From positions 1-26,085 of the IMG/VR virus record IMGVR_UViG_3300031758_000497: DNA of 26,085 bases, one strand, 5' to 3'. A program made the translations under genes and the position numbers. Shown in pieces: positions 1,349 to 25,349 of this stretch. How positions within the stretch are numbered: position 1 is the first letter of the stretch; every line of letters starts with the position of its first letter. A model generated the notes under the pieces. That model worked only from the letters and a program-made list of their open reading frames with translations. It made no database searches and had not been told where the DNA came from. Source of the stretch: a virus.

Positions 1349-2407
1349 ATGCCAAAACGCCCCAAATTCGAACCGACCAAAACCCCAGATGGCTGGGCAG
1401 TCAACATCCCATCCTCGATCTCAGCAACGAATAGTCGGGAAAGGAAGTTCTTTGCCGACAAAAAGGAAGCTGAGAAGTTCGCGGCCACGATCCGCGCCAG
1501 GTATCATGCTGGGGAAAGATCAGGTGTGATCTCCAAGGTCGCTGCGATGGACGCATCAGAGGCAATGCGGATTCTAAAACCTCATGGATTGACGCTGACT
1601 GAAGCGGCAAAGGATGTGGCTCGCAGAATGGAAGCATCGGGAAGCAAGGAAACATTCAAGAACCGATACGATTGGGTTTTACCTATGGGCGAGGCTTATT
1701 GGTCCGACCGTTACATTCGAGACATGGAATCACTTCCAAGGTGGGTTCCTGAATCGTTCATGGATCTGAGATGCGCCGCAATAACGCCAGACGTTATCAG
1801 AAAGGCATTGATGGAAGGTGGCGCCATCGCTCTTTCCACCATCGAGAACCGATCCCGCTACATCGCCGCAGTTCTTAATTACAAACCACGGCACAGGAAG
1901 CAGACCGAGATTGCGATCATGAGCCAAAAGCAGGTCAATGCCATGTTTGATGCTTGTCTGGATGACACCGAGCGCTGGGCCGTGGCATTGATGATCTATG
2001 CTGGGATTCGACCTAGCGTCAGCGATGGGGAAATGTCGCGCTTGGATTGGCAAGATATCAGCGATGAGCAGATTTACATTTCCAAGGATGTTTCCAAAAC
2101 CAACTCCGAACGCTTCATCCCGATTTTGCCGGCACTCGCAGCTCGCATTGAACACCACCCAGAATCAGGCACAGTCATTCCCTCAAACTGGAAGCGGAGA
2201 TATGCGATCTTGAGAAAGGCAGCAAAGTTGACAGGGCAAGACGAACCGCGCCACACGTTCGCCAGCAATTTCCTAGCTGCCACATCCGAGGATCAAACAA
2301 AATCCGCAATGGGACATTCAGCAGGATCAAGAACGCTCTTCAAGCACTACCGCCGCGCCATCACCGAAGAGCAAGGCAAGGCATTTTTTGGAATCAGCGG
2401 GATTTGA
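1349..2407 (+). CDS. int: Tyrosine recombinase / phage integrase
   Basis: The 352-residue product fits the tyrosine recombinase family, which cuts and joins attP and attB through a 3'-phosphotyrosine. The catalytic C-terminal half shows Ala-Gly-Ile-Arg221, a Ser-Lys250-Thr beta hairpin, Pro-Arg301-His-Thr-Phe, Gly-His323-Ser and the nucleophile Tyr334 in His-Tyr-Arg-Arg. The residue three before Arg301 is Asp298 where most members have His. The N-terminal 180 residues are basic and should hold arm-type and core-binding regions. The start is ATG in an A-rich context without Shine-Dalgarno. The last codons lie inside the tRNA-like sequence on the opposite strand, the usual geometry for a phage that integrates into a tRNA 3' end. 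Confidence 0.93.
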   Translation: MPKRPKFEPTKTPDGWAVNIPSSISATNSRERKFFADKKEAEKFAATIRARYHAGERSGVISKVAAMDASEAMRILKPHGLTLTEAAKDVARRMEASGSKETFKNRYDWVLPMGEAYWSDRYIRDMESLPRWVPESFMDLRCAAITPDVIRKALMEGGAIALSTIENRSRYIAAVLNYKPRHRKQTEIAIMSQKQVNAMFDACLDDTERWAVALMIYAGIRPSVSDGEMSRLDWQDISDEQIYISKDVSKTNSERFIPILPALAARIEHHPESGTVIPSNWKRRYAILRKAAKLTGQDEPRHTFASNFLAATSEDQTKSAMGHSAGSRTLFKHYRRAITEEQGKAFFGISGI

Positions 2408-2577: not shown

Positions 2578-2850
2578 TTACCCTGCCTTGCTGACCCTGT
2601 CTCGCTTTAAGGATCGCAGCAGCTTTTTTTCAACCTCCTTTGCAGGTATACTCCCAGCTATTGGTGACAAGATACCAACTCGCTCCGCTTCGGTGCGGAT
2701 CAAGCCAGTGACCGCTGCGGAGGCTGAAATGTGCAAATGGTCAGCAAGTTTCTTTAATACCTCAGAAGTGCCGCGAGTCATTGAAATATTGACTTTTACG
2801 TTCTCTAACGGGTTTTCTTCCTTATTTTGTTTGGGTTTTTTCGTGTTCAT
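2578..2850 (-). CDS. Ribbon-helix-helix (Arc/CopG-like) transcriptional regulator, leftward
   Basis: The core is a beta-strand Val-Lys-Val-Asn-Ile-Ser-Met followed by two helices, the pattern of RHH DNA-binding proteins, which act as dimers whose strands enter the major groove. A Lys/Asn-rich tail precedes it and a basic tail follows. An upstream in-frame ATG at 2862 is possible, but it lies inside a good -10 box (TATGAT), so I prefer ATG 2850; that would give a nearly leaderless mRNA. The gene diverges from the rightward early genes and shares the operator region with them, the position of a lysogeny repressor. Its RHH core resembles those of the two rightward neighbours. Confidence 0.72.
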   Translation of the reverse strand: MNTKKPKQNKEENPLENVKVNISMTRGTSEVLKKLADHLHISASAAVTGLIRTEAERVGILSPIAGSIPAKEVEKKLLRSLKRDRVSKAG

Positions 2851-2857
2851 AACTTTG

Positions 2858-2885
2858 ATCATAGCACAAGCAAAAATTTATTCAA
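2858..2885 (-). promoter_or_regulatory. Predicted promoter for the leftward RHH gene
   Basis: On the minus strand TTGAAT (2880-2885) is followed after 16 nt by TATGAT (2858-2863), a good sigma-70-like pair. Transcription would begin near 2851, right at ATG 2850, giving a leaderless transcript similar in principle to that of lambda cI from PRM. Confidence 0.45.
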
Positions 2886-2894
2886 GGCATATTC

Positions 2895-2972
2895 TTGCGC
2901 AAAAATAAAGATATTTGATAAATTGCGCCTTTTTTGGTTGCATCTTACGCCATTCTTACGCAAGTATTGCGC
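2895..2972. promoter_or_regulatory. Array of five TTRCGC repeats, candidate RHH operator
   Basis: The hexamer TTGCGC or TTACGC occurs at 2895, 2923, 2945, 2956 and 2967, all in the same orientation. The last four starts are spaced by 22, 11 and 11 bp, one or two helical turns, so they face the same side of the DNA. RHH dimers typically bind such phased half-sites cooperatively. The first two copies could overlap a rightward promoter (TTGCGC at 2895 and GATAAA at 2917), which is only a weak match. Confidence 0.55.
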
Positions 2973-2978
2973 CAACGA

Positions 2979-3179
2979 ATGACAAAGCAAGACACTAAAG
3001 CAAAACGGGGCGCACCGAAAAAGAAGACTCTTAGGGTTCGTCGAAACATCTCAATCCACCCAACCATGTTAAAAGTTGGCGAAAAAATTGCATTCCAATC
3101 AGGACTGTCGTTCTCGTCATGGCTAGAGCAGTTTATCCGCTCAGAACATGACAAGCTAACTAAGGAGGTATCACTATGA
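2979..3179 (+). CDS. Ribbon-helix-helix regulator, rightward
   Basis: Sixty-six residues: a Lys/Arg-rich N-terminus, then Arg-Arg-Asn-Ile-Ser-Ile followed by two helices containing Gly-Leu-Ser-Phe-Ser-Ser. This is the RHH pattern and it aligns closely, by eye, with the C-terminal domain of the next gene. ATG 2979 is preferred to the upstream in-frame TTG 2934, which would put most of the operator-like repeats inside the coding sequence. There is no Shine-Dalgarno. It overlaps the next gene by four bases (ATGA). First rightward gene of the switch; a Cro-like or autoregulatory role is inferred. Confidence 0.72.
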   Translation: MTKQDTKAKRGAPKKKTLRVRRNISIHPTMLKVGEKIAFQSGLSFSSWLEQFIRSEHDKLTKEVSL

Positions 3180-3598
3180 TTACCTACTTTGTCCAGATGG
3201 GAGACTCGGTTAAAATCGGGACAACCAACAACCCAAAGCATCGCTTAATGCAGCTTAAGGTTTCATTTCCTTATGATCTTACTCTTTTAGGATTGGCTGA
3301 CCTACCTGAAAAGGAAGCGCAAAGATTAGCTGCTACTTTTACCAAAAGAAGAAACGGAGAATGGTTTGAATACAATAGCGAACTAATCACTTGGATTAAA
3401 TCACTACCTGCGACAACCAGCAAATGGGCGGGATTTGAATTTAGACCTATTCCTAAAATGAAGGGCGAAAGTGTTCGTGTTAATATTTCAATCGACCAAG
3501 TAATTTTAAGAGCGGGTCAAAAGCTGGCGTTAGATCAAGGTATATCATTTTCCGCGTTGATTAGTCAGTTGGTCCGCGAAAACCAAGCGAAGGGATAA
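3176..3598 (+). CDS. GIY-YIG (T5orf172/MUG113-like) domain fused to a ribbon-helix-helix domain
   Basis: Residues 1-75 look like the T5orf172/MUG113 branch of the GIY-YIG superfamily: Tyr4-Phe-Val-Gln, then Val12-Lys-Ile-Gly-Thr, an Arg in Asn-Pro-Lys-His-Arg-Leu, a conserved Glu region, and Gly-Glu-Trp-Phe (61-64). Residues 97-140 are an RHH domain (Val-Arg-Val-Asn-Ile-Ser-Ile plus two helices) closely related to the preceding gene. A strong Shine-Dalgarno (AAGGAGGT) lies before ATG 3176. GIY-YIG domains usually cut DNA; whether this one keeps activity or serves only as a sensor or binding domain cannot be told. The fusion suggests DNA targeting by the RHH half. Confidence 0.7.
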   Translation: MITYFVQMGDSVKIGTTNNPKHRLMQLKVSFPYDLTLLGLADLPEKEAQRLAATFTKRRNGEWFEYNSELITWIKSLPATTSKWAGFEFRPIPKMKGESVRVNISIDQVILRAGQKLALDQGISFSALISQLVRENQAKG

Positions 3599-3601
3599 TC
3601 A

Positions 3602-3787
3602 ATGAAAACCCTCAACCAAACCTCACTTGGAATCGAACTGGGAGTCTCAACTGCGACGATCAGCGAATGGGTCAAAAAGGGGATTATCACTCCATCAATT
3701 CGGGAAGGCTACATTTACCGGTTTGATCTCGACCAAGTGAAGGAGCAACTCGCGGAACGGGCAAAATCTAACACCGAAAAGCAATGA
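3602..3787 (+). CDS. Small MerR/excisionase-like HTH protein
   Basis: Sixty-one residues with a helix-turn-helix at about 5-28 (Ser-Leu-Gly-Ile-Glu-Leu-Gly-Val-Ser-Thr-Ala-Thr-Ile-Ser-Glu-Trp) followed by a short strand-like segment containing Tyr-Arg-Phe. This is the winged-helix fold shared by MerR-type, AlpA and Xis proteins. Placed just after the RHH genes, it may be an excisionase or early regulator. The ATG lies three bases after the previous stop, with a weak AAGGG upstream, and the stop overlaps the next start. Confidence 0.65.
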   Translation: MKTLNQTSLGIELGVSTATISEWVKKGIITPSIREGYIYRFDLDQVKEQLAERAKSNTEKQ

Positions 3788-12370: not shown

Positions 12371-12867
12371 GCAACACGAACACAACCATTGAGATATCGG
12401 ACAACTTAGCAGAACAGATCATCAACCTCCACACCCAAGCGGAAGCATCGCAAGGGGTGGCAATGGATCGCATCGAGGATCTGATCGGCTCACGGCTTAA
12501 CGTCGCGGCATTAGTCGAGGCAGCAAAGGCAAAGCATGGGCAACACTTCCGCCAATGGTGGGAGGACAATGGTCTGCCTGACAACTGGGCATCGAGGTAT
12601 CTAACGATTGCCAAGACTGCAAAGCGCGTTCATCTCGGTGATAAGAATCAGTTGAGACTGATCGGGATCTTACCCGAAGGTGCAGAAGAACCACATCAAC
12701 CGCAGCAACGAAGAGAAGAGAACGCACTGGAGTGGATAAAGTTAGCAGGTCGGCTCACAACCACACTGACTGCGGACCGTATCAAGAGCATGGACAACTT
12801 CCAAAGGCGTCTTGCGATCGATAAGCTCAAGCCTTTTGTGGATATTTACAACCAACTTAATGGTTAG
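12367..12867 (+). CDS. DUF3102-like phage protein
   Basis: Of the 166 residues, about 10-87 follow the DUF3102-type pattern: Ala-Glu-Gln-Ile-Ile-Asn-Leu-His, Leu-Val-Glu-Ala-Ala-Lys-Ala-Lys-His-Gly-Gln-His-Phe, Trp-Trp-Glu-Asp-Asn-Gly, Ala-Ser-Arg-Tyr-Leu-Thr-Ile-Ala-Lys. A Gln/Arg-rich linker and a helical C-terminus follow. The domain is found in phage and plasmid proteins, possibly DNA-binding; its function is not established. ATG 12367 overlaps the preceding stop. It is the last early-type gene before the packaging region. Confidence 0.68.
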   Translation: MSNTNTTIEISDNLAEQIINLHTQAEASQGVAMDRIEDLIGSRLNVAALVEAAKAKHGQHFRQWWEDNGLPDNWASRYLTIAKTAKRVHLGDKNQLRLIGILPEGAEEPHQPQQRREENALEWIKLAGRLTTTLTADRIKSMDNFQRRLAIDKLKPFVDIYNQLNG

Positions 12868-13027
12868 AATGCACACTAACGAGGTCATTGTTAGTATGCA
12901 CACCCGCCACGCCCCGGTTAGGGGACCCCTACGCCGCCAGCCCATCTTGGGTTGCTTGCCCTCTTGGTGAAAAACCATGACTTTTGCAAAAATCATTACA
13001 CCGACGGGGGGCTGAGTATCAACTAGA
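12868..13027. promoter_or_regulatory. Intergenic region upstream of terminase: inverted repeats, candidate cos/pac or late promoter region
   Basis: This 160-base gap is the only long one before the late genes. It holds a direct repeat ATGCACAC (12869 and 12896), an inverted repeat ACTAAC/GTTAGT (12875-12880 and 12890-12895), a 13-bp palindrome TAGGGGACCCCTA (12919-12931) and a G6 run near 13006. In lambda-like phages the packaging start lies next to the small terminase gene, so cos or pac is plausible. Sequence alone does not show a cleavage site. Confidence 0.45.
12977..13015 (+). CDS. Possible 12-residue leader peptide (MTFAKIITPTGG)
   Basis: A 13-codon frame begins in the AAAAACC-ATGA context seen before many real genes here and stops 12 bases before the small terminase gene. 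It may be a translated leader or chance. It has no homology basis. Confidence 0.25.
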   Translation: MTFAKIITPTGG

Positions 13028-13627
13028 ATGAAAACTGAATCCAACAAAGAAACCATCGCACAAGCAGCGGCGAGATTGACGCTTGCTCTCGGTCGAAATG
13101 TGACCTCGGACTGCGTTCGTCAATGGCGGAAAAAAGGATTGGACTTGAACGACACTAACGCGCTGATGGCAAAACTTCGGAATCAGAAACGGATGCCCAA
13201 AAAGCTCAAGCCACCAATCGATGACCAAGATCGAGACGACGACGATTCAAACCAAGACCCGCAAGATTTCCCCGACATCCTCGCCGACCAAATCCCCAAC
13301 GAGATCAAGAAGCTGGAAAACAAGCTGATTGCGGCAAGGGATTATGAAGAAGCGCGGACCATCTCCACGCAGCTCACCGGGTTAAAGAACGCATTCCGTC
13401 TGCATGTTGAGATGGGTCAATACGTCACCCGCGAATCACAGGAGCGCGAGGGACTTCATGCTGGGCAAGTCATCAAACAAATGATCATGCGGATTCCATC
13501 CGAAATTCCACAAGCCTTGGTTGGGTTAGAATACCCAGACGCGGTGAAGAAGTGTGATGAGTTCGCCCATTCGATGCTTTTGGAAATGTCCGAACTCGGC
13601 AAACTTCTCGATGACAGATCAGCGTAA
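13028..13627 (+). CDS. Terminase small subunit, Nu1-like
   Basis: The 199-residue protein has an N-terminal HTH (about 8-40: Ile-Ala-Gln-Ala-Ala-Ala-Arg-Leu ... Val-Arg-Gln-Trp-Arg-Lys-Lys-Gly-Leu), a highly acidic linker (68-88), a coiled coil (about 92-125), and a helical C-terminus that should bind the large subunit. This matches the lay-out of lambda Nu1 and other small terminases, which recognise the packaging site. It overlaps the large subunit gene by 17 bases. The start lies after CAACTAGA without Shine-Dalgarno. Confidence 0.75.
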   Translation: MKTESNKETIAQAAARLTLALGRNVTSDCVRQWRKKGLDLNDTNALMAKLRNQKRMPKKLKPPIDDQDRDDDDSNQDPQDFPDILADQIPNEIKKLENKLIAARDYEEARTISTQLTGLKNAFRLHVEMGQYVTRESQEREGLHAGQVIKQMIMRIPSEIPQALVGLEYPDAVKKCDEFAHSMLLEMSELGKLLDDRSA

Positions 13628-15386
13628 CAAATCGCCTTATGTTTGGGGCTTGTCATCGGGACTTAAACCGCCCGACCGCTTACCATTGGCAGAGATGGCG
13701 AGTCAGAACGTGTTCTTGTCTGGGTCTCAATACGGTTCAAAATACGATCTCTCGGTCGTGCCAGCGCATGAGTTCATTTTCAATTCGTTCAAAGATCCAG
13801 CCGTGAAAGAGATCGCGAACGTGGCGCCGACAGGTTTTGGCAAGACGACCATCTTCGAAGTCTGCGGTTCGTATGCGGTCGCGCAAGATCCTGGCGACAT
13901 GCTCATCCTCGGACAGAACGACAAGCTGATCCAAGATTGGATGGAGTCACGATTCTTGAAAGTGCTTCGGAAATCACCTTGGACTAGAGACTTCATCCCA
14001 ACTGGGGCGCAGCGCAACGACACGAAAAAGACGCAGATCATTTTCAAGCACATGAGCCTTTTTACGGGTGGCGCCAACGAAGCGAACACGCAGGAGAAGT
14101 CGATGAGGTATTGCTTCGGTGATGAGCCTTGGAAATGGAAACACGGAATGATCGGCGAGTTCTTACGTCGTCACCATAACCGACTCAACCGCAAGATGCT
14201 TTTACAATCCCAAGGTGGAGACGAAGGAACGGAATGGGAAGAGTTCGCGAGAAATGGCAAGTGGCATGACGGCCATCATCTCTGCCCTGAGTGCAAACAA
14301 TTTCAGCCAGTGTCGATGAAGATGCTGAAATATGAAAAAACCAAGGACGGGAATGGGGAATATGATTGGGTCAAAATCAATCAATCAGTCAGACTTGTTT
14401 GCCCGACTTGTGAAACCGAGTTTGAAGATTCCGACGGCAACCGCAGGAAGTGGGCGAAGTGCATCCCGGTATGGAAGGGCAACGCTCACTTTCCAGATCG
14501 CTTCACCTACTCATGGACGTTCCTCACTGTGTGGACAAAGACATGGTCCGAGATCGTCAAACTCTGGATCACGGCGAATGACTCGGTGAAGAACGGAAAC
14601 TACGAACCGCTCAAGCAATTCATCAACAAAGAGATGGGTCAATTCTGGGAGCAACCCAAAGACACGCCCAACCTCGACACCCGCCATGATCCTTATTTAA
14701 AATCGGCTTACAACAACGGAGAGAAGTGGGAGAACGAACATGCCAGGTTCATGTCCATTGACGTTCAGAAGCAAGGATTCTGGGTGACGATCCGTTGCTG
14801 GAGAATTGGCGAGACGAAATCCAGATTGCTTTGGGAGGGGAAAGTTGACACTTACCAAACCCTGTTTGAATTACAATCTCGCTTTGGTTTGGAAAACCGC
14901 GATGTGTTTGTCGATGGTCGGTATGGGATCGACGAGGTTGTGCGGCAGATTTACATTCATTGTGGCAATGCAGTTGAAAACCATTGGAATATCTTGATTG
15001 GTCAGGATAATTCAAAGGGCTATGCTTTTGACGTCGGGACATCAAAGCGTCCACGAAAGGTTTGGAAGATCTATTCAAAGTTTCAACGCGGGGTGACGAG
15101 CCGAGGTCAGCAATATCGCACGATCAGCTTTTCAAACTTACGAGCCAAAGACGCATTGGCTGGATTGATTGAAATTGGCGATGGTGCGTTTGGCGTGCCG
15201 GTCGATGCCTCGCCCAACTATATTTCCCAAATGCAATCTGAATCCAAGCGCGAGATGAAACCGGGTGTTTGGAAGTGGGACAAGATCAAATCTCATTACC
15301 ACAACCACATGTGGGACACCGAGGTCATGGGCATTGTTGCCTGTGCGATTCGGGGAGTTCTCAAGATTGAGTTAGTCGATGAATGA
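13611..15386 (+). CDS. terL: Terminase large subunit, lambda gpA-like
   Basis: From ATG 13611 the product is 591 residues, close to lambda gpA (641). It shows a Walker A-like Ala-Pro-Thr-Gly-Phe-Gly-Lys-Thr (72-79), Arg-Tyr-Cys-Phe-Gly-Asp-Glu (166-172) as Walker B, a zinc site made of Cys225-x-x-Cys228 and Cys264-x-x-Cys267, and a C-terminal nuclease part with Ser-Ile-Asp384-Val and Phe-Val-Asp-Gly-Arg-Tyr-Gly. It pumps DNA into the prohead and cuts concatemers. The ORF extends further upstream (13554) only inside the small subunit gene. Downstream order is lambda-like (portal, protease, capsid). Confidence 0.93.
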   Translation: MTDQRNKSPYVWGLSSGLKPPDRLPLAEMASQNVFLSGSQYGSKYDLSVVPAHEFIFNSFKDPAVKEIANVAPTGFGKTTIFEVCGSYAVAQDPGDMLILGQNDKLIQDWMESRFLKVLRKSPWTRDFIPTGAQRNDTKKTQIIFKHMSLFTGGANEANTQEKSMRYCFGDEPWKWKHGMIGEFLRRHHNRLNRKMLLQSQGGDEGTEWEEFARNGKWHDGHHLCPECKQFQPVSMKMLKYEKTKDGNGEYDWVKINQSVRLVCPTCETEFEDSDGNRRKWAKCIPVWKGNAHFPDRFTYSWTFLTVWTKTWSEIVKLWITANDSVKNGNYEPLKQFINKEMGQFWEQPKDTPNLDTRHDPYLKSAYNNGEKWENEHARFMSIDVQKQGFWVTIRCWRIGETKSRLLWEGKVDTYQTLFELQSRFGLENRDVFVDGRYGIDEVVRQIYIHCGNAVENHWNILIGQDNSKGYAFDVGTSKRPRKVWKIYSKFQRGVTSRGQQYRTISFSNLRAKDALAGLIEIGDGAFGVPVDASPNYISQMQSESKREMKPGVWKWDKIKSHYHNHMWDTEVMGIVACAIRGVLKIELVDE

Positions 15387-15391
15387 CATGG

Positions 15392-15412
15392 ATTGAAACG
15401 CTCGCTTTTTAA
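15392..15412 (+). promoter_or_regulatory. TTGAAA leader, copy 1
   Basis: ATTGAAACGCTCGCTTTTTAA runs to just before ATG 15413. The TTGAAA lies about 20 bases upstream of the start, as in three other late genes (19513, 21082, 25330). The 12 bases TTGAAACGCTCG recur exactly at 25331. No Shine-Dalgarno is present. Confidence 0.4.
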
Positions 15413-15691
15413 ATGGCGCGACCTTCCAACTCTTTTTTGAAAGCATTGATCCGATACGGGAATGCGTCTGCTGGGAACCTGACCAACCTTCAAACATGGC
15501 AAACAGAAGCCATTGTTGAAATCGCAGCGCAAAAGGGTGGCGATTTAGTCAGCGGATCAACCAACGGAAGCGCGTTCACCAAGATGGCATCGATGACCAA
15601 CCATGAGTGGGTTGAAGTGCTAGGTGAAGTTTTAGAACATATTGACAGAGGCACAATGCCACAATCACGAACCATCGCTCGCCTCTTTTAA
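15413..15691 (+). CDS. Small protein at the gpW position (head-tail joining candidate)
   Basis: Ninety-two residues, helical, with Ser-Phe-Leu-Lys-Ala-Leu-Ile-Arg near the N-terminus and Trp-Val-Glu-Val-Leu-Gly-Glu-Val-Leu in the C-terminal half. It sits between the terminase large subunit and the portal, exactly where lambda has gpW (68 residues). No sequence similarity to gpW is obvious by eye, so the call rests on position. It is preceded by the repeated TTGAAA leader. Confidence 0.55.
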   Translation: MARPSNSFLKALIRYGNASAGNLTNLQTWQTEAIVEIAAQKGGDLVSGSTNGSAFTKMASMTNHEWVEVLGEVLEHIDRGTMPQSRTIARLF

Positions 15692-15694
15692 TCT

Positions 15695-17209
15695 ATGCCA
15701 ATCCTCGACTCATACGGAAACCCAGTGACAAGCGGCAGCGGCGGAAGATTTGCCAACGCAGCGACTCGCTATGACAGATCGCAACCAGTTGAGCCTCTTT
15801 TCACGCAGGACTTCGACGCGCTTGTTCCTGATTGGGATCGCAAGACATTGGTTTCTGGATCTCGGAAAATGTTTCAAAACTTTCCGCCAGCAGAAGGAGC
15901 GATCACGCAGAAAGCTGACAACGTAGTCGGCAGAGCATGGGACGCGAAGTTCAACGGCGAAGATAAGGAATGGGGCAAGCTCGCAGCTGATTGGCTGAAT
16001 CTTCAATGGTATGGAATGTGCGACATCAAAGGAAACGACTTTAAATCCTTGCTCTGGCTGGATTGCGTTGCTCTGGATCGCGATGGGGATTTCTTAACTG
16101 TATTCGAACCGACCGAAAGCGGATGGCCCATGACTCGCCGGATCCCAGCAAACCGCATCGGTCAAAGATCGTCATTCGACGACAAGATTTTGGTGGGTGC
16201 ATACAAAGGAGCGAAGATGAGGCACGGGGTCATTATTGATCGTCGCGGCGTTCCTTTAGCCTATAACATCCTCGGCGACACACCCGAAGAGGATATTCAA
16301 ATCAACGCGGTCGATTGTGTATTTTCAAGTGATCCAAACTGGCACGACCAAACTCGCGGACTGCCAAGCCTTTCGGGAGCATTGAAATTCGTGAGATCAT
16401 CTTTGCTCTCCCACGAATGGGAGCAGATGGCGCAGCTCATGGTCTCATCCATCGGCTTGGTTGAATACAACGAAACTGGCGGACCGGACATCGACGACCC
16501 CGGCTATACAAGCCCAACCGATTCCACAACGACTCCGACCACCGAGCTTTTACAGAACGGCACGATTCGCTATTTCCGCAGCAATTCAGGCGGCAAGATC
16601 GAGCAGGTCAAACATGATCGCCCTGGCGACATGTGGGATCGCTTCCAAGATCGCGTAATTCGGATGATGTGCAAATCGTTGAAGTGGCCGTATGAGCTGG
16701 CATGGAAAGCGAACGAGATCAACGCTGCACTTGTCCGCTCGATCCAAGATCAAGCACGGATGAGCGTAGAGGATCGCCAAGACACCTTGAAAGTTGGCGC
16801 CATGCGTCAGGTTCGCTGGGCAGTTGCAAAAGCGATCAAAGAAGGAATCCTTCCACAACCCAAGAATCAAAGCGATTGGTGGAAATGGGATTTCATCATG
16901 CCACGCAAGTTCAGCATCGATGCTGGCAGAGACGCGGCACAACGCCGAGAAGATTTCAAGATCGGGTTCAAGAATCGAGGTCAGATCATCACCGAAGAAG
17001 GTGGCAACGAAGAGGTCATGGAAGATGACCGCATCGAAGCCGTTTTCAGGTATGAGAAGAAGATCCGCGAACGTGAGCAACTGGAGGGATTTGTCATCGA
17101 TCGTCGCAAATTTGAAATGCTGACACCGAATGAAATCCCGATTGCGGCGCCATCGAGTGAAGATGAGACCATCGATCAGGAAAACACACCCCAAAAAGAA
17201 GAAGAATGA
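15695..17209 (+). CDS. Portal protein, lambda gpB-like
   Basis: The 504-residue product matches the lambda-type portal family in length (lambda gpB is 533) and in position between terminase and protease. Recognisable features are the N-terminal Gly/Ser-rich tail, a conserved-type Met-Thr-Arg-Arg-Ile-Pro-Ala-Asn-Arg-Ile (about 147-156), and a charged C-terminal helical part. Portals form dodecameric rings at one head vertex through which DNA passes. It overlaps the protease gene by four bases (ATGA). Confidence 0.87.
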   Translation: MPILDSYGNPVTSGSGGRFANAATRYDRSQPVEPLFTQDFDALVPDWDRKTLVSGSRKMFQNFPPAEGAITQKADNVVGRAWDAKFNGEDKEWGKLAADWLNLQWYGMCDIKGNDFKSLLWLDCVALDRDGDFLTVFEPTESGWPMTRRIPANRIGQRSSFDDKILVGAYKGAKMRHGVIIDRRGVPLAYNILGDTPEEDIQINAVDCVFSSDPNWHDQTRGLPSLSGALKFVRSSLLSHEWEQMAQLMVSSIGLVEYNETGGPDIDDPGYTSPTDSTTTPTTELLQNGTIRYFRSNSGGKIEQVKHDRPGDMWDRFQDRVIRMMCKSLKWPYELAWKANEINAALVRSIQDQARMSVEDRQDTLKVGAMRQVRWAVAKAIKEGILPQPKNQSDWWKWDFIMPRKFSIDAGRDAAQRREDFKIGFKNRGQIITEEGGNEEVMEDDRIEAVFRYEKKIREREQLEGFVIDRRKFEMLTPNEIPIAAPSSEDETIDQENTPQKEEE

Positions 17210-18336
17210 AAACCATTTTAATCGAAAACAAGAGCGGAAAAGTGAAGCTCAATGAAGTTGTCACCCGCGAATCAATCGGTCGTATGATCGATGAGATCGG
17301 CAAGCTATTCGGCGCAACTGCATCAGCATCTGGCGCGGACTTTGGCGAGATCATGAACGCAGCGGAAAACGCTGTGGATGTTCTTGAGATCGAAATCAAT
17401 TCACCGGGTGGCAGCGTGTTCGATGGCTACACAGTATATCATGAGATTCAAAGCCTCAAGGATCGCGGCGTTGTGGTCAACGCAACCATCACCGGCATGG
17501 CGGCATCGATGGCGTCGGTCATCTGCATGGCATGCGACAAAGTCTCAATCGTCCCGCATGGCCGCATGATGATCCATGACGCATCCAGCGGATTCTCTGG
17601 AAATGCCGACGAGATGAGAAAACAAGCCGACCTTCTCGACTCGATCAGCGCAGACATCGCCAACATCTATTCAACCCGCACCGGGAAGGAAGTCGATGAG
17701 ATCCGCGCCATGATGAAAAAGGAAACTTGGATGGACGCCAAAACCACAGTTGAGAACGGATTCGCCGATGAAGTTGTCAGCAAAGCAAACGCCTTGGTTG
17801 AAATCACTCTCAATACAGACACGCAAAATTCAAACTCAGAAACTGACATGATCTTCCTCACCAACAAAGCCGCAGTCGAGAAAATCTCTGGACTGGAAGC
17901 ACGGACCGCAGAATTGGAAGCCGAAATCTCCGCACACGCTGCCGAGGTCGAAGCTCTCAAGGCTGAACAAGTAACCGCATCCGAAGCAATCGCAGAGCGT
18001 GACGAGAAGATCGTCGCTCTTTCCGCCGAGCTTTCCGAAAAGGTTTCAGCCATCTCCGCTGAACTTGCCGAAAAAGCCGAAGCAATCGCTGCTGCTGAAT
18101 TGGTAATTAAAGACCAAGAAGCAATCATCGAAACTGCCAACGAAAAACTTGCTTCATTCGATGAAGAAGTCGCGAGCAAAGCCCAACTCCAGATCGCATC
18201 ACTTGGATTTACTGGATCAATTCCAGAAACATCCGGCGAAGTTGGAGCTACTCTCTCGACCCGCGAACAGATCAACGCAATTCCAGATGCGAAAAAGCGC
18301 CAGGAGGCGCGATTGAAAAACTGGAAAAACCTCTAA
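17206..18336 (+). CDS. ClpP/SppA-like head maturation protease fused to a scaffold-like coiled coil
   Basis: Residues 1-205 are a ClpP-type serine protease: Asn65-Ser-Pro-Gly-Gly-Ser (oxyanion region), Gly-Met-Ala-Ala-Ser101 (nucleophile) and Met-Ile-His124-Asp (catalytic histidine). Residues 220-340 form a long Ala/Glu-rich coiled coil, then a Gly-rich hinge and a basic C-terminus. This is the lambda C/Nu3 plan: protease and internal scaffold in one reading frame. An internal ATG at 17848 could make scaffold alone. It lies between portal and capsid genes, as expected, and would process the prohead and itself. Confidence 0.88.
   Translation: MKTILIENKSGKVKLNEVVTRESIGRMIDEIGKLFGATASASGADFGEIMNAAENAVDVLEIEINSPGGSVFDGYTVYHEIQSLKDRGVVVNATITGMAASMASVICMACDKVSIVPHGRMMIHDASSGFSGNADEMRKQADLLDSISADIANIYSTRTGKEVDEIRAMMKKETWMDAKTTVENGFADEVVSKANALVEITLNTDTQNSNSETDMIFLTNKAAVEKISGLEARTAELEAEISAHAAEVEALKAEQVTASEAIAERDEKIVALSAELSEKVSAISAELAEKAEAIAAAELVIKDQEAIIETANEKLASFDEEVASKAQLQIASLGFTGSIPETSGEVGATLSTREQINAIPDAKKRQEARLKNWKNL
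17848..18336 (+). CDS. Possible internally started scaffold protein (Nu3-like)
   Basis: In the same frame as the protease, ATG 17848 begins a 162-residue product containing only the coiled coil and C-terminal tail, as Nu3 does inside lambda C. The upstream bases lack a good Shine-Dalgarno, but so do most starts here. This is an inference from the lambda pattern. Confidence 0.35.
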   Translation: MIFLTNKAAVEKISGLEARTAELEAEISAHAAEVEALKAEQVTASEAIAERDEKIVALSAELSEKVSAISAELAEKAEAIAAAELVIKDQEAIIETANEKLASFDEEVASKAQLQIASLGFTGSIPETSGEVGATLSTREQINAIPDAKKRQEARLKNWKNL

Positions 18337-18363
18337 TCTCCTAACCTCTAATAAAAAAATATC

Positions 18364-19227
18364 ATGGCTAACACCTTTGACTCAGCATTAGTGACGGACA
18401 GCCTTCGCGACGTAGCGATCACTGTCCTTCAATCCCGCCTTGCTCCGCTTAACGCGTTCTCGCAAGACTTCTCCGCCGATCCGCTCAAGCCTCGCGCCAC
18501 TGTTCAAGTGCCGATCGCGACAGCCGGTGGAACCACTCAAACCAACGCAAGCAACTTTGAAAGCGGCGACAGCACGCTCGACAACGTAGCCGTTTCGGTT
18601 TCTCAGTATTCCAACAGCTTCCACTTGACCAACGATCAGATCAACGGTGGTCATCGCCTTGAGAAAATCGCCAAGATCAACCTTCATCAGCTTGCCAACA
18701 AAATCATCGATGTGGCTTTGGCACCTGTCACCGCAGCTAACTTCGGCGCAGCAACCATCGACGTTGACACCGCTGGCGACGTTACCGCAGCTAGCCTGAA
18801 AACCTTGTGGGCAGCCATTAAAGACGGCGACTCCCGCAACCTGATTGTTGATGGCAGCATCTACGCTCAATTCCTCCCAGCTAACTTGGACGCATTCCAA
18901 CTTGCAGCAGGCGGCAAGAACGTCGGCATGTATGGTTTCGACTTCTTCTCCTACAACAACCGTTGGGATGGCGCAGAAGCAACCGTCAAAGGCTTTGCTT
19001 GCTCTCCTCAAGCGATTGCAGTTGCATCGGGTCTCCCTGCTAACAACATCGCTGGAAGCGACATGATGGCAGTTGAGAACATCGAGATCCCTGATCTTGG
19101 TCTCACGGTCCAAATGAACATGTGGGTTTCACGCGCAACTCGCGCCGTCTGGGCATCTTACGATGTCATGTTCGGTGCTGCAAAAGGCGATCCAAACGCA
19201 CTCAAAATCATCAAACTCACTCCTTAA
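18364..19227 (+). CDS. Major capsid protein
   Basis: The 287-residue protein has an N-terminal helix, beta-rich segments with many Gly, Ala, Asn and Thr, and the high Ala, low Cys composition usual for capsid proteins, with optimised codons. Val-Ser-Gln-Tyr-Ser-Asn-Ser-Phe-His-Leu-Thr-Asn (about 79-90) and a hydrophobic, Ala-rich centre resemble HK97-fold coat proteins of the lambda/P22 group. It directly follows the protease-scaffold gene. No separate decoration protein (gpD-like) is obvious; the next small gene is too basic at its end. A start with A-rich leader (AAAAAAATATC-ATG) suggests high expression. Confidence 0.82.
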   Translation: MANTFDSALVTDSLRDVAITVLQSRLAPLNAFSQDFSADPLKPRATVQVPIATAGGTTQTNASNFESGDSTLDNVAVSVSQYSNSFHLTNDQINGGHRLEKIAKINLHQLANKIIDVALAPVTAANFGAATIDVDTAGDVTAASLKTLWAAIKDGDSRNLIVDGSIYAQFLPANLDAFQLAAGGKNVGMYGFDFFSYNNRWDGAEATVKGFACSPQAIAVASGLPANNIAGSDMMAVENIEIPDLGLTVQMNMWVSRATRAVWASYDVMFGAAKGDPNALKIIKLTP

Positions 19228-19232
19228 TCTGA

Positions 19233-19448
19233 ATGAGCTTTATGGTTAAAAGCGGCGGCGAAATGAAAGCTGCGGAGACAACCTCCGCAGCTCGCCAAAT
19301 CGCTGCCGAACTTGCCAACAAGTCTGGGGAAAAATCTTACATCTACCGGTTACCAATCGTGATCGAAGAGGTGATCTATCCTAAGAAAAAGGAACCCGTC
19401 AAAGACTCTGAGCAAGAACCGATAAAGCCCAAAAGAAAGAAGAAATAA
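19233..19448 (+). CDS. Small basic protein after the capsid gene
   Basis: Seventy-one residues: an Ala/Glu helix (about 12-30), a central hydrophobic strand (Ile-Tyr-Arg-Leu-Pro-Ile-Val-Ile-Glu-Glu-Val-Ile-Tyr), and a Lys-Pro-rich tail ending Lys-Lys-Lys. The position is that of lambda FI or of a decoration protein, but size and composition do not decide. It is followed at once by a strong terminator-like hairpin. The start is five bases after the capsid stop. Confidence 0.55.
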   Translation: MSFMVKSGGEMKAAETTSAARQIAAELANKSGEKSYIYRLPIVIEEVIYPKKKEPVKDSEQEPIKPKRKKK

Positions 19449-19475
19449 TTTTCTCTGGTTCGTAGTTCATAGTGG

Positions 19476-19508
19476 AGCCAGCTACTCGAAAGGGTGGCTG
19501 GCTTTTTC
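19476..19508 (+). terminator. Strong rho-independent terminator with GAAA tetraloop
   Basis: AGCCAGC (19476-19482) pairs with GCTGGCT (19497-19503), and the pairing continues inwards through TACTC/GGGTG to a GAAA loop (19488-19491), about 12 bp in all with a few G-T pairs. Four T then C-T follow. This looks like a good terminator after the capsid genes, which would give capsid mRNA in excess over downstream tail genes. Confidence 0.75.
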
Positions 19509-19512
19509 TATG

Positions 19513-19533
19513 TGTTGAAACCAGCCAAATTGT
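19513..19533 (+). promoter_or_regulatory. TTGAAA leader, copy 2
   Basis: GTTGAAA at 19513-19519 lies 21 bases before ATG 19534, followed by a spacer ending TTGT directly before the ATG. This resembles the leaders at 15392, 21082 and 25330. Here it lies directly behind the terminator. Confidence 0.4.
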
Positions 19534-19848
19534 ATGAGCATCGCCGCATTCGTCAAAACCGCTTTCAACTCGTCCCTCACCACGCTTTCCGCCGAGGACG
19601 TGACCATCGGCGCGCAGACGAAAAAGGGAGTTATTGAGGACATCGGAACCGAGCTAATGCTGGGTGATGGTGGCGATGAGGTCCGCCGAGGTCTCCGCAT
19701 CACTTTCCCCGGTGAAGCGTTCACCACCACCCCAGCTCGCCGTGCAACCGTGACCTGCCGATCTCTGACATGGCAGATCACCCGCGTCGATAACGGCCCC
19801 GGATCACTCACCATCGAAGTCGAAGAACCAGAAGCAAGAGGACGATGA
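19534..19848 (+). CDS. Small beta-rich protein, head-tail connector (FII-like) candidate
   Basis: The 104-residue protein has a short helix and then mostly strands: Gly-Val-Ile-Glu-Asp-Ile-Gly-Thr-Glu-Leu-Met-Leu-Gly, Gly-Leu-Arg-Ile-Thr-Phe-Pro-Gly, Ala-Thr-Val-Thr-Cys-Arg-Ser-Leu-Thr-Trp-Gln-Ile-Thr-Arg-Val. Length, fold prediction and position after capsid and before the Z-like gene fit a head completion or stopper protein of lambda FII type. The identity is by position, not by motif. Preceded by the TTGAAA leader and coupled to the next gene by overlap. Confidence 0.6.
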   Translation: MSIAAFVKTAFNSSLTTLSAEDVTIGAQTKKGVIEDIGTELMLGDGGDEVRRGLRITFPGEAFTTTPARRATVTCRSLTWQITRVDNGPGSLTIEVEEPEARGR

Positions 19849-20612
19849 ACCTGAAAATTGAGATCAATTCGTTTGCAATGAATGAACTTAATGTGACACT
19901 CAATCGATTGGCTGAGTCTACAGGAAAGACGCTGCAAGAAGTCTTGCCGTCACAGATGCGATTACTTGCGACCGATCTTGCATACGTCACATATCCAAAA
20001 GGCAAAGGATCAGCGGATAACGTAAATCACCAAGCAAAAATCCAAGGAAGAATCAGAGATGTTTATCCAAGACCTGGGACAATAGTCAACGAACTCAAAA
20101 ACAAGGACACAAGGCTTGGGGTTGCATTTTCTTTAATGCTTCAAAAAAGGCAGTATTCAAAAGCCAAGCAGCTTACTGACCGTCATCTGCCAAATATGGG
20201 GTTGAGCATTGGGTCATTCGACGGCGGAGAATTGCACAAAGCGCAATCTGAACAAAAGAGAGTCACAAAGCGATTGCTCGTCCCACTCTACACTCGCGTC
20301 GAGGCATACACGAAGAAAACTATGAAGATGTCGGGTTATGCTAAAGGCGGATTTGCTACTGCATCACGGCAACTCGGAGGAGTTCGCGGCATTCCTGGTT
20401 GGGCAACTCGTCACAGATCGCCGGGTACTGGAACGATCACGGGCGATGGCAAAACTTTAACTGTTACGATGATAAATCACGTCAAATATCTGAGCGAATT
20501 TGCGCTTCAATCCTATGACGAAAGAGCAGCAGTAAGCAACAGAAAGAGAAATATAACAAAATTACTGGATCGAATCCAGACCAACAAAATCAAAAAACTA
20601 ATGAGACGATGA
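19845..20612 (+). CDS. Neck / minor tail protein at the Z (HK97 gp10) position
   Basis: A 255-residue basic protein with an N-terminal strand-helix part and a central Lys/Gly-rich part, ending in Lys-Lys-Leu-Met-Arg-Arg. The place after a small connector and before the tail-terminator-like gene is that of lambda Z. The sequence does not show a well-known motif. It overlaps both neighbours by four bases. Local base composition is slightly more AT-rich than the flanking genes. Confidence 0.55.
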   Translation: MNLKIEINSFAMNELNVTLNRLAESTGKTLQEVLPSQMRLLATDLAYVTYPKGKGSADNVNHQAKIQGRIRDVYPRPGTIVNELKNKDTRLGVAFSLMLQKRQYSKAKQLTDRHLPNMGLSIGSFDGGELHKAQSEQKRVTKRLLVPLYTRVEAYTKKTMKMSGYAKGGFATASRQLGGVRGIPGWATRHRSPGTGTITGDGKTLTVTMINHVKYLSEFALQSYDERAAVSNRKRNITKLLDRIQTNKIKKLMRR

Positions 20613-21082
20613 GCAATTTATCCTTACACCGCAAAGTTGAAAAAGCCCTGACCGCTTATCTCCAGACGATCATCACATCTGGCATCACGATCTATCCCGG
20701 ACACGACAAGGCATCGGTCGTGAACATCCCGCACATTATTGTTTATTCTGAGGACTGTGTTCCACATCCAGACATGCCGACCTTCACCGGCATCCGCATT
20801 GTGACAACCCGCTTCCAGATCCGTGTTGATTCCGAAGTCGCTAATGCCAGAACGTCACTTGATGGCTGGAGAAAAACCATCGAGGACACGCTAGGATCTG
20901 TCCCAACGATATTGGCAGCACTGAATCCGCCAGCACAAGGACAAGACAACCGCACGATCACCGACCTTTATTTCTACGACATCATAGCCGGGACTGAGCC
21001 AACAGAGTTCGACCGAGCCGACTGGGTTGAGGATGTCGTTGTTGGCGTTGTTTGCCAGCCGCTGGATTCACGATCCGCCTAG
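20609..21082 (+). CDS. Tail terminator protein candidate (gpU-like position)
   Basis: The 157-residue protein alternates helix and strand: an N-terminal helix (Arg-Lys-Val-Glu-Lys-Ala-Leu-Thr-Ala-Tyr-Leu), then strands with Ile-Val-Thr-Thr-Arg-Phe-Gln-Ile-Arg-Val-Asp, a helix with Trp-Arg-Lys-Thr-Ile-Glu-Asp-Thr, and a final strand. This fits the tail terminator fold and position (after the Z-like gene, before the tail tube). It overlaps the gene before by four bases. The call rests mainly on gene order. Confidence 0.55.
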   Translation: MSNLSLHRKVEKALTAYLQTIITSGITIYPGHDKASVVNIPHIIVYSEDCVPHPDMPTFTGIRIVTTRFQIRVDSEVANARTSLDGWRKTIEDTLGSVPTILAALNPPAQGQDNRTITDLYFYDIIAGTEPTEFDRADWVEDVVVGVVCQPLDSRSA

Positions 21083-21101
21083 TTGAAATCCTGCGTCTTG
21101 T
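21082..21101 (+). promoter_or_regulatory. TTGAAA leader, copy 3
   Basis: GTTGAAATCCTGCGTCTTGT precedes ATG 21102. It shares GTTGAAA and a TTGT-ATGG end with the leader at 25330 and, less exactly, with the two others. It forms the left arm of the hairpin described next. Confidence 0.4.
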
Positions 21102-21111
21102 ATGGACGCAG
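21091..21111 (+). promoter_or_regulatory. Perfect 7-bp hairpin with the start codon in its loop
   Basis: CTGCGTC (21091-21097) pairs fully with GACGCAG (21105-21111) around the 7-nt loop TTGTATG, which contains the ATG of the gene at 21102. TCTATTTT follows, so it might also act as a weak terminator. It could control translation or reduce readthrough. Confidence 0.45.
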
Positions 21112-21299
21112 TCTATTTTCACCCAGCAGGTCACAAGCATCACTTTCGCAACGTGGAGCCTAAAGACGGCAAAGCAGATCTTCACGACGACGATGGAAAA
21201 CTCGTTTTCAAAGATGTGCCTGTATCAGCCGAACCGAAGGACGGTTGTGTCGTGATCGATGGTTATCAACCCACAAAAGTCTCCAAATCTAAACAATAA
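21102..21299 (+). CDS. Small acidic hypothetical protein in the tail region
   Basis: Sixty-five residues with His-rich start (His-Pro-Ala-Gly-His-Lys-His-His-Phe), several Asp/Lys pairs and Lys-Asp-Gly repeats, probably beta-rich. It lies between the tail terminator and tail tube candidates. Its start codon is in a hairpin loop. No match is recognised. Confidence 0.52.
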   Translation: MDAVYFHPAGHKHHFRNVEPKDGKADLHDDDGKLVFKDVPVSAEPKDGCVVIDGYQPTKVSKSKQ

Positions 21300-21305
21300 A
21301 AAATC

Positions 21306-21656
21306 ATGGCACTCACCACTAAAGGCACAGCTCACTTATACGGAATCGTCGGCGGCGTCGCTATCGTCACCAACGCAACCGTCATCTCTTGGTCGCTCAA
21401 TTCTTCGAATAAGAACGTCGCAGAAACTGCAAACGAAATCGGCAACGAGATCGAGCGCAGATATGATGACCTTCATCAAGAAGGCACATTGACCATCCGT
21501 CCCCGTTCTGGATTCACTGCTCTCGTTCCCGGTGCTAACTACACCTACAACAGCGTCGCATTCGAAATCATTTCAGAAGGTCGCGAAGAGCAGAACCAAG
21601 GTTTTGTCACTCTGACCTACGCAATCAAAAAATCCGAATACGTAAGCTACGCTTAA
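21306..21656 (+). CDS. Tail tube protein candidate
   Basis: The 116-residue protein is rich in Thr, Gly, Ser and Val with predicted strands; it starts Ala-Leu-Thr-Thr-Lys-Gly-Thr and ends in a Tyr-Ala-Ile-Lys-Lys-Ser strand. The place, immediately before the tail chaperone-like gene and tape measure, is that of the major tail protein; siphophage tubes are usually somewhat longer (about 150-250 residues). The A-rich leader (AATAAAAAATC-ATG) suggests high expression. The assignment rests on position and composition. Confidence 0.5.
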   Translation: MALTTKGTAHLYGIVGGVAIVTNATVISWSLNSSNKNVAETANEIGNEIERRYDDLHQEGTLTIRPRSGFTALVPGANYTYNSVAFEIISEGREEQNQGFVTLTYAIKKSEYVSYA

Positions 21657-21660
21657 CCAA

Positions 21661-22326
21661 GTGGATGATCGATTCTATCACTCGTATCTTGCACCAGAAG
21701 TAAAGGTTTGTGGCCGCAATCTGCAAACCTTCACTCTCTGGCATCATCTAGTCTTATCGTCGATCAATTCACCTGTCGCACTTGGTGGACCAAACATCAG
21801 CATTCCCGATCTGCTTTTAGCGGTTCGGGTTTGTGGCTTGAAATATGGTGAGCAACAAATCAAGCCGACGATCAAAGACGTATTCTGGCGCCTCAAACTA
21901 ACTCGCAACAAAAAAAGATTTAGGGAAGAGGCATCAAAGTTTTATGCTTGGATGTCGATGCAATGCAGTCCCCCCCGATTCTATCGAGGAGGAAACACTG
22001 GGGGCGTCACAAAAGGAATCGAAAGCGGTCCGCGCTGCCTTGGTCTCGCTTGCTCTCTCATGTATCGTGGCGGCGTCAATGAGCATGACGCGTGGAATAG
22101 TTCGCTCGGCAAAGCTCTTTGGATGGATGTTCAATTCGCCCAGCTTGAAGGCATCCAACTCCGATTCTTAGACGACGCGGATCTGGACGATTCCGAAATC
22201 GATCTCTCAGAACTCACCGACGAAGAGGCAATGGAAATTTTCAAAGCAGATCTTCCAGAAGAATTTGTCCAAGGCTCATTCGATCACTGGAAAACGAACA
22301 TAAAAGGAAAGGCAAACTCGATATGA
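21661..22326 (+). CDS. Tail assembly protein candidate at the G/T position (GTG start)
   Basis: The 221-residue protein starts at GTG 21661, four bases after the tail tube stop. The first 120 residues are helical with Trp-His-His-Leu-Val-Leu and Arg-Leu-Lys-Leu-Thr-Arg; the C-terminal 50 residues are strongly acidic and helical. A tail chaperone normally lies here, just before the tape measure gene; lambda makes it as G plus a frameshifted T. No clear slippery site was found. Its stop overlaps the tape measure start. Confidence 0.5.
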   Translation: MDDRFYHSYLAPEVKVCGRNLQTFTLWHHLVLSSINSPVALGGPNISIPDLLLAVRVCGLKYGEQQIKPTIKDVFWRLKLTRNKKRFREEASKFYAWMSMQCSPPRFYRGGNTGGVTKGIESGPRCLGLACSLMYRGGVNEHDAWNSSLGKALWMDVQFAQLEGIQLRFLDDADLDDSEIDLSELTDEEAMEIFKADLPEEFVQGSFDHWKTNIKGKANSI

Positions 22327-24014
22327 TGAAATGGGTATTTGGAGCAGACACGACGCCATTCCGCAAAGGGCTGGATGACATGCGCACACAGACCAAGGCT
22401 TTTGCTGGCAGCGTGAAAGGAATGCTTGCCGGCGCGATTGGCGTTGGAAGTATTGTCGCAGGACTCAAAACTGTTGTTGAGTATTTCAGCCGCATCTCAG
22501 ATCTCGCGACTCGCTTTGGTGAATCCGCTGAATCAATGCAGCGCGTAGGGGCAGCAGCACAGCAAGCAGGGTCTGATCTGGAAGGAGTCGCCAAGGCGAT
22601 GACAATCGTCACAAAGAACGCCAACACAGCAGCAACACAGGGCGGATCTATGGCTGAAGCATTTGCAGCCCTCGGCATCGATGTTTCTGGCTTCGTGAAC
22701 ATGCCGATTGAGGACAAACTTCTCACCCTCGCAAAAGCGATGGATAACGGCAAAGGCAGCGGACAGAACCTCGCGCAGATGATGCAGGTGCTTGGTAAAT
22801 CTGGCGCTGAAATGATTCCTCTTTTATCTCAGGGATTTGAAGAGCTTCAAGAGCAGATGAAAAACACCAGCGTTCTTTCAGAATCAACAGTTGCCACCAT
22901 CGAGCAATTCGGTGATGGCATGGATGATTTGAAGCAAAAATCAATGGTGCTTGGTGGATATGTTTTCCAGTTCTTTGATATGCTAGGAAAAGGAATTGGC
23001 GGATTGCTCAATTTCGTCATTCGCGGATGGATGGAGGCATTTTCCCTATTAGCCGATAGCTCAATGGAAAGCGCTTCAATTATGAAAAAGCTTTTTACTG
23101 GCGATTTTCAAGGAGCCGCACAAGGAGTCAACAATCTAAAAAAGAACTTCCAAACCTCATTCGATCAGATTGTTGAGAACGCTCATGGCTTTGTGTCAGA
23201 TTTGGACTACGCGCTGGCTGGCGGCAAGACTGGGAAAAAGGGATCATCTGCCGATGTTGAAATGCTTGCTGAGATGGCGCAGCAAGAGGAAGAGCGTTCG
23301 AAAATTGCAGAAAAAACAGAAGAAGACAGAAAGAAACTTGCAGAGGAAATCGCAAAACTCAAAGAGGACGCTGCTTTTAATGAACTCAAACTCGCCGAGC
23401 AAATCCTCGCTTTGGAAACAAAAAGCGAAGAGATGCGCAAAAAGGCTTACAAGACAGTAGGCAACCAATCCTTAGAGGCTCAAAAGGAAATGCTTGAAAC
23501 TGAGAAGGAGCTTAAAAAACTTCGCGAGGATCAAGGAAAAATTCAACAGACTGCAAATCAAAAAGCCAAAGAACTTGCAGACAAAGCCAAAGCGGAGGAA
23601 GCAAAGAAAGCGGAAGAACTTGCTGAACTACGCAAGGATGAGGAAAAGCAGATCCGTGACGTTAAGTTTGAAGGACTCAAGACAGATGAGGAAAAGGTCG
23701 CAATGCTCGCAAAAGAGCAGTCAGACCTTTTGAAAAAAGCCCAGAAAGCAAAAACCGAAGAGGACAAGATCAACCTTCGAATGGAGGCCCGTGACAAGGG
23801 ATCAGAGATTGCTGCCATTTTGGCGGACAAAAAAGAAAACGTCCTCCCAACACTTTCCACAAGCTCACTCGCATCCATCGGTGGTGGCGGCAGCGCAAAC
23901 ATCCTCGCAGCAGGAACGCAGAAAATCGACCGTCAAATCTCCCTCCTTGAAGTTATCGCTCGCAACACCGCCAAGTCTGAAGGTGGCGGCATAAAAATCC
24001 CTGACCCAATCTAA
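22323..24014 (+). CDS. Tape measure protein
   Basis: The 563-residue product has a hydrophobic Gly/Ala segment near the N-terminus (about 31-50), a globular helical part with Gly-Lys-Ser-Gly-Ala-Glu, a second hydrophobic membrane-like stretch (about 216-242), and a long Glu/Lys/Ala coiled coil (about 310-490). This is the usual make-up of a siphophage tape measure, whose length sets tail length; by the rule of about 1.5 angstroms per residue it would imply a fairly short tail, near 80-85 nm. It overlaps the preceding stop; ATG 22326 follows directly and could also serve as the start. Confidence 0.85.
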   Translation: MMKWVFGADTTPFRKGLDDMRTQTKAFAGSVKGMLAGAIGVGSIVAGLKTVVEYFSRISDLATRFGESAESMQRVGAAAQQAGSDLEGVAKAMTIVTKNANTAATQGGSMAEAFAALGIDVSGFVNMPIEDKLLTLAKAMDNGKGSGQNLAQMMQVLGKSGAEMIPLLSQGFEELQEQMKNTSVLSESTVATIEQFGDGMDDLKQKSMVLGGYVFQFFDMLGKGIGGLLNFVIRGWMEAFSLLADSSMESASIMKKLFTGDFQGAAQGVNNLKKNFQTSFDQIVENAHGFVSDLDYALAGGKTGKKGSSADVEMLAEMAQQEEERSKIAEKTEEDRKKLAEEIAKLKEDAAFNELKLAEQILALETKSEEMRKKAYKTVGNQSLEAQKEMLETEKELKKLREDQGKIQQTANQKAKELADKAKAEEAKKAEELAELRKDEEKQIRDVKFEGLKTDEEKVAMLAKEQSDLLKKAQKAKTEEDKINLRMEARDKGSEIAAILADKKENVLPTLSTSSLASIGGGGSANILAAGTQKIDRQISLLEVIARNTAKSEGGGIKIPDPI

Positions 24015-24017
24015 ATC

Positions 24018-24689: not shown

Positions 24690-24692
24690 TCC

Positions 24693-25322: not shown

Positions 25323-25329
25323 GATCAAA

Positions 25330-25349
25330 GTTGAAACGCTCGTCTTTGT
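25330..25349 (+). promoter_or_regulatory. TTGAAA leader, copy 4
   Basis: GTTGAAACGCTCGTCTTTGT precedes ATG 25350. TTGAAACGCTCG is identical, over 12 bases, with the leader at 15393-15404. A short stem CGTC/GGCG encloses a loop ending at the start region, similar to but weaker than the hairpin at 21091. Confidence 0.4.

Follow-up and report, generated by a model that had tools for sequence, protein, structure and literature searches.

One of the closest described systems is the origin-directed nuclease Odn of Vibrio phage ICP1 (gp88), in which a T5orf172 GIY-YIG domain is combined with an N-terminal DNA-binding domain copied from the RepA protein of a satellite, which showed how the theft of another element's DNA-binding domain can give a phage nuclease its target (PMC8263062). 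The nuclease activity of Odn was tested, and the change of its E180 to alanine is the published catalytic mutation (PMC8263062). Our profile search confirmed the T5orf172 domain in the Odn sequence. The T5orf172 homing-type endonucleases of ICP1-like and T5-like phages represent the same nuclease family; their DNA-binding domains, namely CapR, DUF723 or DUF4397 zinc-finger or RepA_N domains, are shuffled as modules, and their genes are situated by essential genes (PMC10448857). The joining of T5orf172 to a shuffled DNA-binding domain is, in itself, already known (PMC10448857); ribbon-helix-helix (RHH) domains are not mentioned for these endonucleases in that work. I-TevI, an active enzyme with an N-terminal GIY-YIG part, a long zinc-finger linker and a C-terminal DNA-binding part, represses its own promoter through an operator that is bound but hardly cut (PMC2988022). 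Additionally, MrpR of the Bacillus prophage SPbeta has a tyrosine-recombinase fold but no recombinase activity, and serves as the master repressor in the control of lysogeny (PMC10516654).

Here, we compare these systems with a gene encoded in a 26,085-nucleotide stretch of viral DNA (IMG/VR record IMGVR_UViG_3300031758_000497), referred to below as the window. The gene encodes a GIY-YIG domain joined to an RHH domain, and belongs to a region of the following composition:

1349..2407, + strand: tyrosine integrase gene (profile matches)
2578..2850, - strand: divergent RHH-like gene, candidate lysogeny repressor; predicted DNA-facing residues K, N, S
2858..2885, - strand: promoter-like TTGAAT-16-TATGAT for the leftward gene, adjoining the array; it matches the consensus, but no better than expected by chance in this region
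2895..2972, + strand: candidate operator array of five TTRCGC repeats, starting at 2895, 2923, 2945, 2956 and 2967; an 11-bp register is kept by the last four
2979..3179, + strand: stand-alone RHH-like regulator of 66 aa, upstream of the fusion and first of the rightward genes, in the 'cro' position; predicted DNA-facing residues R, N, S
3176..3598, + strand: GIY-YIG::RHH fusion gene, 140 aa; its start codon overlaps the stop codon of the preceding gene (ATGA)
3176..3406, + strand: GIY-YIG domain (residues 1-77); Tyr4, Lys13-Ile14-Gly15, Arg23 and Glu62 of GEWF kept, Ala48 and Ala52 at the Glu and His columns
3467..3595, + strand: RHH domain (about residues 98-140); predicted DNA-facing R101, N103 and S105 at the positions of Arc Q9, N11 and R13
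3602..3787, + strand: small HTH (MerR/excisionase-like) gene, next in the rightward operon (profile matches)

The original prediction, made from the sequence alone, had placed a lysogeny-type switch here, and the open reading frame of the fusion was found at 3176-3598, in an integrase-adjacent, divergent regulatory region of an element that, judging from its tyrosine integrase, is temperate. At the end of the integrase gene, positions 2397-2413 of the minus strand match the 3' end of a tmRNA (E=5.8e-4, below the gathering score), which makes an attachment site in a tmRNA or tRNA gene probable at this place; a tRNA search of the window gave none.

The assignment of the N-terminal half to the T5orf172/MUG113 branch of the GIY-YIG superfamily was confirmed. 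Residues 7-71 matched two Pfam profiles above their cut-offs, MUG113 (3.3e-6, 28.0 bits against 22.3) and T5orf172 (1.7e-4, 22.5 bits against 20), so that the GIY-YIG relation claimed for residues 1-75 stood up to the profile search. Moreover, the protein scored 72 bits against a profile of its relatives that had been built without it. A PDB sequence search gave no significant match. In the AlphaFold2 model, built from a 22-row alignment (mean pLDDT 84.5), the strands and helices of this half followed the GIY-YIG order (E2-8, E11-17, H20-30, E36-41, H45-54, H68-76), with the three-stranded sheet and flanking helices of this fold, and residues 1-89 matched two proteins of the GIY-YIG type, Slx1 (Z 5.2 and 5.1) and EF2693 (Z 4.4), with Z values that are modest.

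The structure prediction likewise recovered the predicted RHH half. By sequence profile its signal was weak (RHH_1, E=0.25; Arc-like phrog_582, E=0.015). In the model, residues 98-140 resembled the repressors Arc and CopG over 42-43 residues (Z 3.0-3.3, 1.9-2.4 A; best scores, Arc Z 3.3 at 1.9 A over 42 aa and CopG Z 3.1), values that are again modest, and the right families topped the structure comparison for each half of the fusion despite this. Both helices, at 108-120 and 125-139, are visible in the monomer model, and the strand is not, as it forms only in dimers. The model supports an Arc/CopG-type fold for the C-terminal half. Arc and CopG share with the fusion this fold and the read-out strand, but have no fused domain of an enzymatic fold.

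The RHH half appears to be a second copy of the switch's own DNA-binding domain. Its similarity to the upstream regulator scored 97 as compared with 21+-4 in shuffled sequences, none of 1000 of which scored as high. The two were expected to be almost the same, and this was overstated: they are clearly homologous (pairwise E=7e-12), but only 42% identical (21/50 residues). The divergent gene product is related to this half as well (score 53 versus 23+-4). In an Arc/CopG alignment, the positions of Arc Q9-N11-R13 are occupied by R-N-S in the fusion, by R-N-S in the first rightward gene product and by K-N-S in the divergent one, a pattern suggesting that all three proteins may read one array. As the predicted DNA-reading residues of the fusion match those of the upstream regulator, its RHH half is expected on the same array.

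The candidate for this array lies between the divergent gene and the first rightward gene. All five TTRCGC copies have the same orientation, and the array matches itself at 0.40 when shifted by 11 bp, as compared with about 0.25 at most other lags. The half-sites of Arc are spaced by 11 bp as well. Since a post-hoc control yielded a comparable cluster, any five copies within 80 bp, in 4 of 40 shuffles, the array is suggestive of an operator, not proof of one, and the other two regulators might be its only users.

The combination of T5orf172 with the DNA-binding domain of another protein is an Odn-type feature of the fusion (RHH copy of the upstream gene, E=7e-12). The differences concern the position, the source and the active site. 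In Odn the DNA-binding half is N-terminal and comes from a rival element, whereas in the fusion it is C-terminal and matches the phage's own adjacent switch gene; no rival element was identified as the source of the copy. I-TevI has the same order of halves as the fusion, but its DNA-binding half is no copy of a neighbouring regulator. Odn carries Glu180, whereas the fusion has alanine at this column.

The last difference bears directly on whether the fusion can cut DNA, one of the two roles, beside DNA sensing, that the original prediction had suggested; sensing, or competition for operators with no cutting involved, may still apply. In the alignment, E180 of Odn, the E of DTEQRIHEEL located four residues ahead of the His, falls in the column of Ala48, and the conserved His column of the family is occupied by Ala52. 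The E-x-x-x-H arrangement is common to the relatives of the fusion: among 89 non-redundant domains the first position is E in 83 and D in 6, and the His is present in 84. In a set of 135 non-redundant relatives that includes the window, the catalytic column is acidic in 133 (E in 128, D in 5), the two exceptions being the window itself and one gappy alignment. Tyr4 and Arg23, which are conserved active-site residues, are kept. Glu62, which had been suggested as a target for mutation, was considered as the catalytic residue and rejected: it is the glutamate of the GEWF signature, present in 133 of the 135 relatives, and not the residue whose importance was demonstrated in Odn, which maps to position 48.

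The register of the active-site helix is not fully settled. Between this helix and GEWF the fusion lacks one residue, and therefore Glu47 could slide into the catalytic column. The profile of the relatives places E47 there with about 50% confidence, and the score over the whole helix slightly favours this register, by 3.7 bits (-4.9 versus -8.6 for A48). With the two active-site columns left aside, the A48 register is far better (-0.4 versus -10.1 bits), and MAFFT picked it, Ala48 taking the catalytic column in all multiple alignments, with the one-residue register doubt attached. The helical wheel points the same way: A48, L51, A52 and F55 lie 26, 34, 66 and 6 degrees from the hydrophobic face, very much like E, I, H and L of Odn (24, 36, 64 and 4), as compared with 83, 143, 43 and 103 degrees in the E47 register, so that only the A48 register keeps this face. 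The His is lost even in the Glu47 register. As both the Glu and the His of the active site appear to be lost, the GIY-YIG half is probably non-cutting, and we regard its catalytic inactivity as quite likely from the alignments. As the active-site feature of active GIY-YIG nucleases, a catalytic Glu in the alpha helix, is missing, we did not class the fusion as a nuclease.

We propose that the fusion is an accessory regulator of the lysis-lysogeny switch of a temperate phage, with a GIY-YIG domain that is probably nuclease-dead, and give this reading a probability of about one half. The protein would have arisen by the joining of a T5orf172/MUG113 GIY-YIG domain to a second copy of the RHH domain of the switch. 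It would be made together with the upstream regulator from the overlapping genes. At the TTRCGC array, which the two would share, it would bind either by itself, as a homodimer, or paired with the upstream protein in a mixed dimer, competing or mixing with that protein. The dead nuclease domain could shift the occupancy of the array through its steric bulk, an additional DNA contact or altered cooperativity, and repression would be tuned or blocked as the outcome. I-TevI and MrpR may serve as precedents, the former for repression through an operator with little cutting, the latter for the control of lysogeny by an enzyme fold devoid of activity, even though MrpR has a different fold, that of a tyrosine recombinase, and is a master repressor. 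By analogy, the fusion would be most like Odn in design and most like I-TevI in its role as a repressor. It speaks against this reading that no close relative of the fusion gene was found, and that a single copy is known.

The main rival of the regulator reading is an active, Odn-like nuclease, whose RHH half would guide the GIY-YIG half to switch operators in competing phages or satellites for cutting, the phage's own array being somehow spared. Its design would be exactly that of Odn, a T5orf172 domain that borrows its DNA-binding domain from a second DNA-binding protein; Tyr4, Arg23 and Glu62 are in place; a one-residue shift of the helix would allow Glu47 to take over; and similar fusions in three other loci, described below, retain the catalytic Glu and His. 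However, the fusion has Ala48 and Ala52 where its relatives carry Glu/Asp and His, and its RHH copy matches the phage's own regulator, which would make the phage's own operators the first target. We consider such a nuclease unlikely, and a spare or competing regulator of the switch more likely than a cutter of DNA.

Alternatively, the gene could be a decaying relic that plays no part in the switch: a GIY-YIG gene of the homing type would have inserted there and acquired the RHH domain of its neighbour. The T5orf172 endonucleases are mobile, swap DNA-binding domains and often decay (PMC10448857), and the loss of an active site is how decay would show itself. The fusion gene had no match in 44 capsid-related records, most of which are fragments, and no empty, uninterrupted insertion site was found, because these records share with the window only its virion half. 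Against decay, the reading frame is intact and the fold is well predicted, and the Tyr, Lys-Ile-Gly, Arg and GEWF residues are kept together with the RHH read-out residues; random decay should not hit precisely the Glu and the His. This makes a relic quite improbable. A further reading, in which the RHH half serves above all to dimerize with the upstream protein and the GIY-YIG half binds RNA or a replication or host protein, linking the switch to another signal, is very improbable: the overlapping genes would favour co-assembly, and there are GIY-YIG genes behind small regulators with which they have no domain in common (in Rhizobium phage RHph_I1_23 and at locus L110), as if the nuclease-like half had an early-operon task of its own, but any ligand of the GIY-YIG half is hypothetical.

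The capture of a segment of the adjacent upstream gene appeared not to be limited to the window. In a systematic test in which distinct GIY-YIG domains were compared with overlapping or adjacent upstream genes, the window (z 18-21) and L131 (z 9-10) stood out, and then L228 and L229. In L131 (2789-3444), an RHH-like gene of 71 aa overlaps a GIY-YIG fusion by ATGA, and the C-terminal part of the fusion is homologous to the product of this gene (score 60 versus 21+-4, 0 of 5000 shuffles). This part has no homology to the RHH domain of the window, and therefore the arrangement looks independent of that in the window. The intergenic region upstream of the L131 genes contains the inverted repeats ACACTGTTG / CAACAGTGT. 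In L228 (1128-2800) and L229 (1090-2794), an integrase-like gene is directly followed by a GIY-YIG gene that opens with a copy of the integrase N-terminal domain (in L228, 61% of 56 residues are identical, E=3e-22), and the GIY-YIG proteins have the catalytic Glu and His intact. The integrase-like protein of L229 matched Phage_integrase of Pfam at 1.6e-4, which is below the cut-off, and its L228 counterpart had no match of its own. Judging from its position, the copied segment would bind DNA.

The capture pattern thus occurs in at least three unrelated settings: the RHH domain of the window, the RHH-like domain of L131, and the integrase N-terminal domain of L228 and L229. Its recurrence outside the window, with intact Glu and His, is, in our opinion, the most interesting result of this analysis. 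We tentatively suggest, as a doubtful but attractive generalization, a recurrent route in which a GIY-YIG domain joins a copy of the DNA-binding segment of the adjacent upstream gene and would become a nuclease aimed at the site of that gene, a switch operator or an integrase site, in rivals or in its own genome, with the window as a disarmed case kept as a regulator. If true, the repeated, apparently independent capture of segments from adjacent genes would be a general route of aiming, and many unannotated small GIY-YIG genes of phages would gain testable targets; the disarmed protein of the window would directly illustrate how a nuclease becomes the regulator of a genetic switch. Our literature search found no GIY-YIG::RHH fusions in phage switches, and no description of a recurring capture of an adjacent gene's DNA-binding segment or of a disarmed case in a lysogeny switch.

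In other phages, HTH_3 (L002), a Fis-type HTH_8 (L098) and an RHH_3-like domain (L100/L131) are the fusion partners of this GIY-YIG domain. In the AlphaFold2 model of the L100 protein, the GIY-YIG half was confirmed (I-TevI, Z 4.6), and no RHH was seen in the C-terminal part, which we call RHH-like on the basis of an RHH_3 match that is below the cut-off (E=0.002) and of its homology to the upstream gene. A search of viral contigs with P0001 gave three loci, all of them GIY-YIG::HTH and none with RHH; searches of viral contigs for relatives of P0002, P0003 and the integrase, and of named phages for P0002, gave none. In the Verrucomicrobiota sample, the matches of P0001 were limited to a GIY-YIG half in one genome and to weak C-terminal ones, and the L100 protein had no match in the Planctomycetota sample.

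Other arrangements differ in what is shared. In Rhizobium phage RHph_I1_23 (L198, 1867-3046), CI-type and cro-like genes are followed by a GIY-YIG gene that overlaps the stop of the cro-like gene; it occupies the position of the window gene but has a different extra domain, and the cro-like domain is not shared. In L245 (1777-2845), likewise picked up in the systematic test, a GIY-YIG gene shares with the N-terminus of the upstream gene a basic tail segment of 24 residues (RPR..RTxSGQISR). A family of phage proteins of about 160 aa that combine GIY-YIG with a Cro/C1-type HTH (HTH_3; L002 and L073-L094) is widespread in viral contigs. As to the window as a whole, its virion half (12848-26085) shares 94% identity with another phage (L015/L061), its left arm, with the switch, is unrelated, and a sharp mosaic boundary lies just upstream of the packaging genes.
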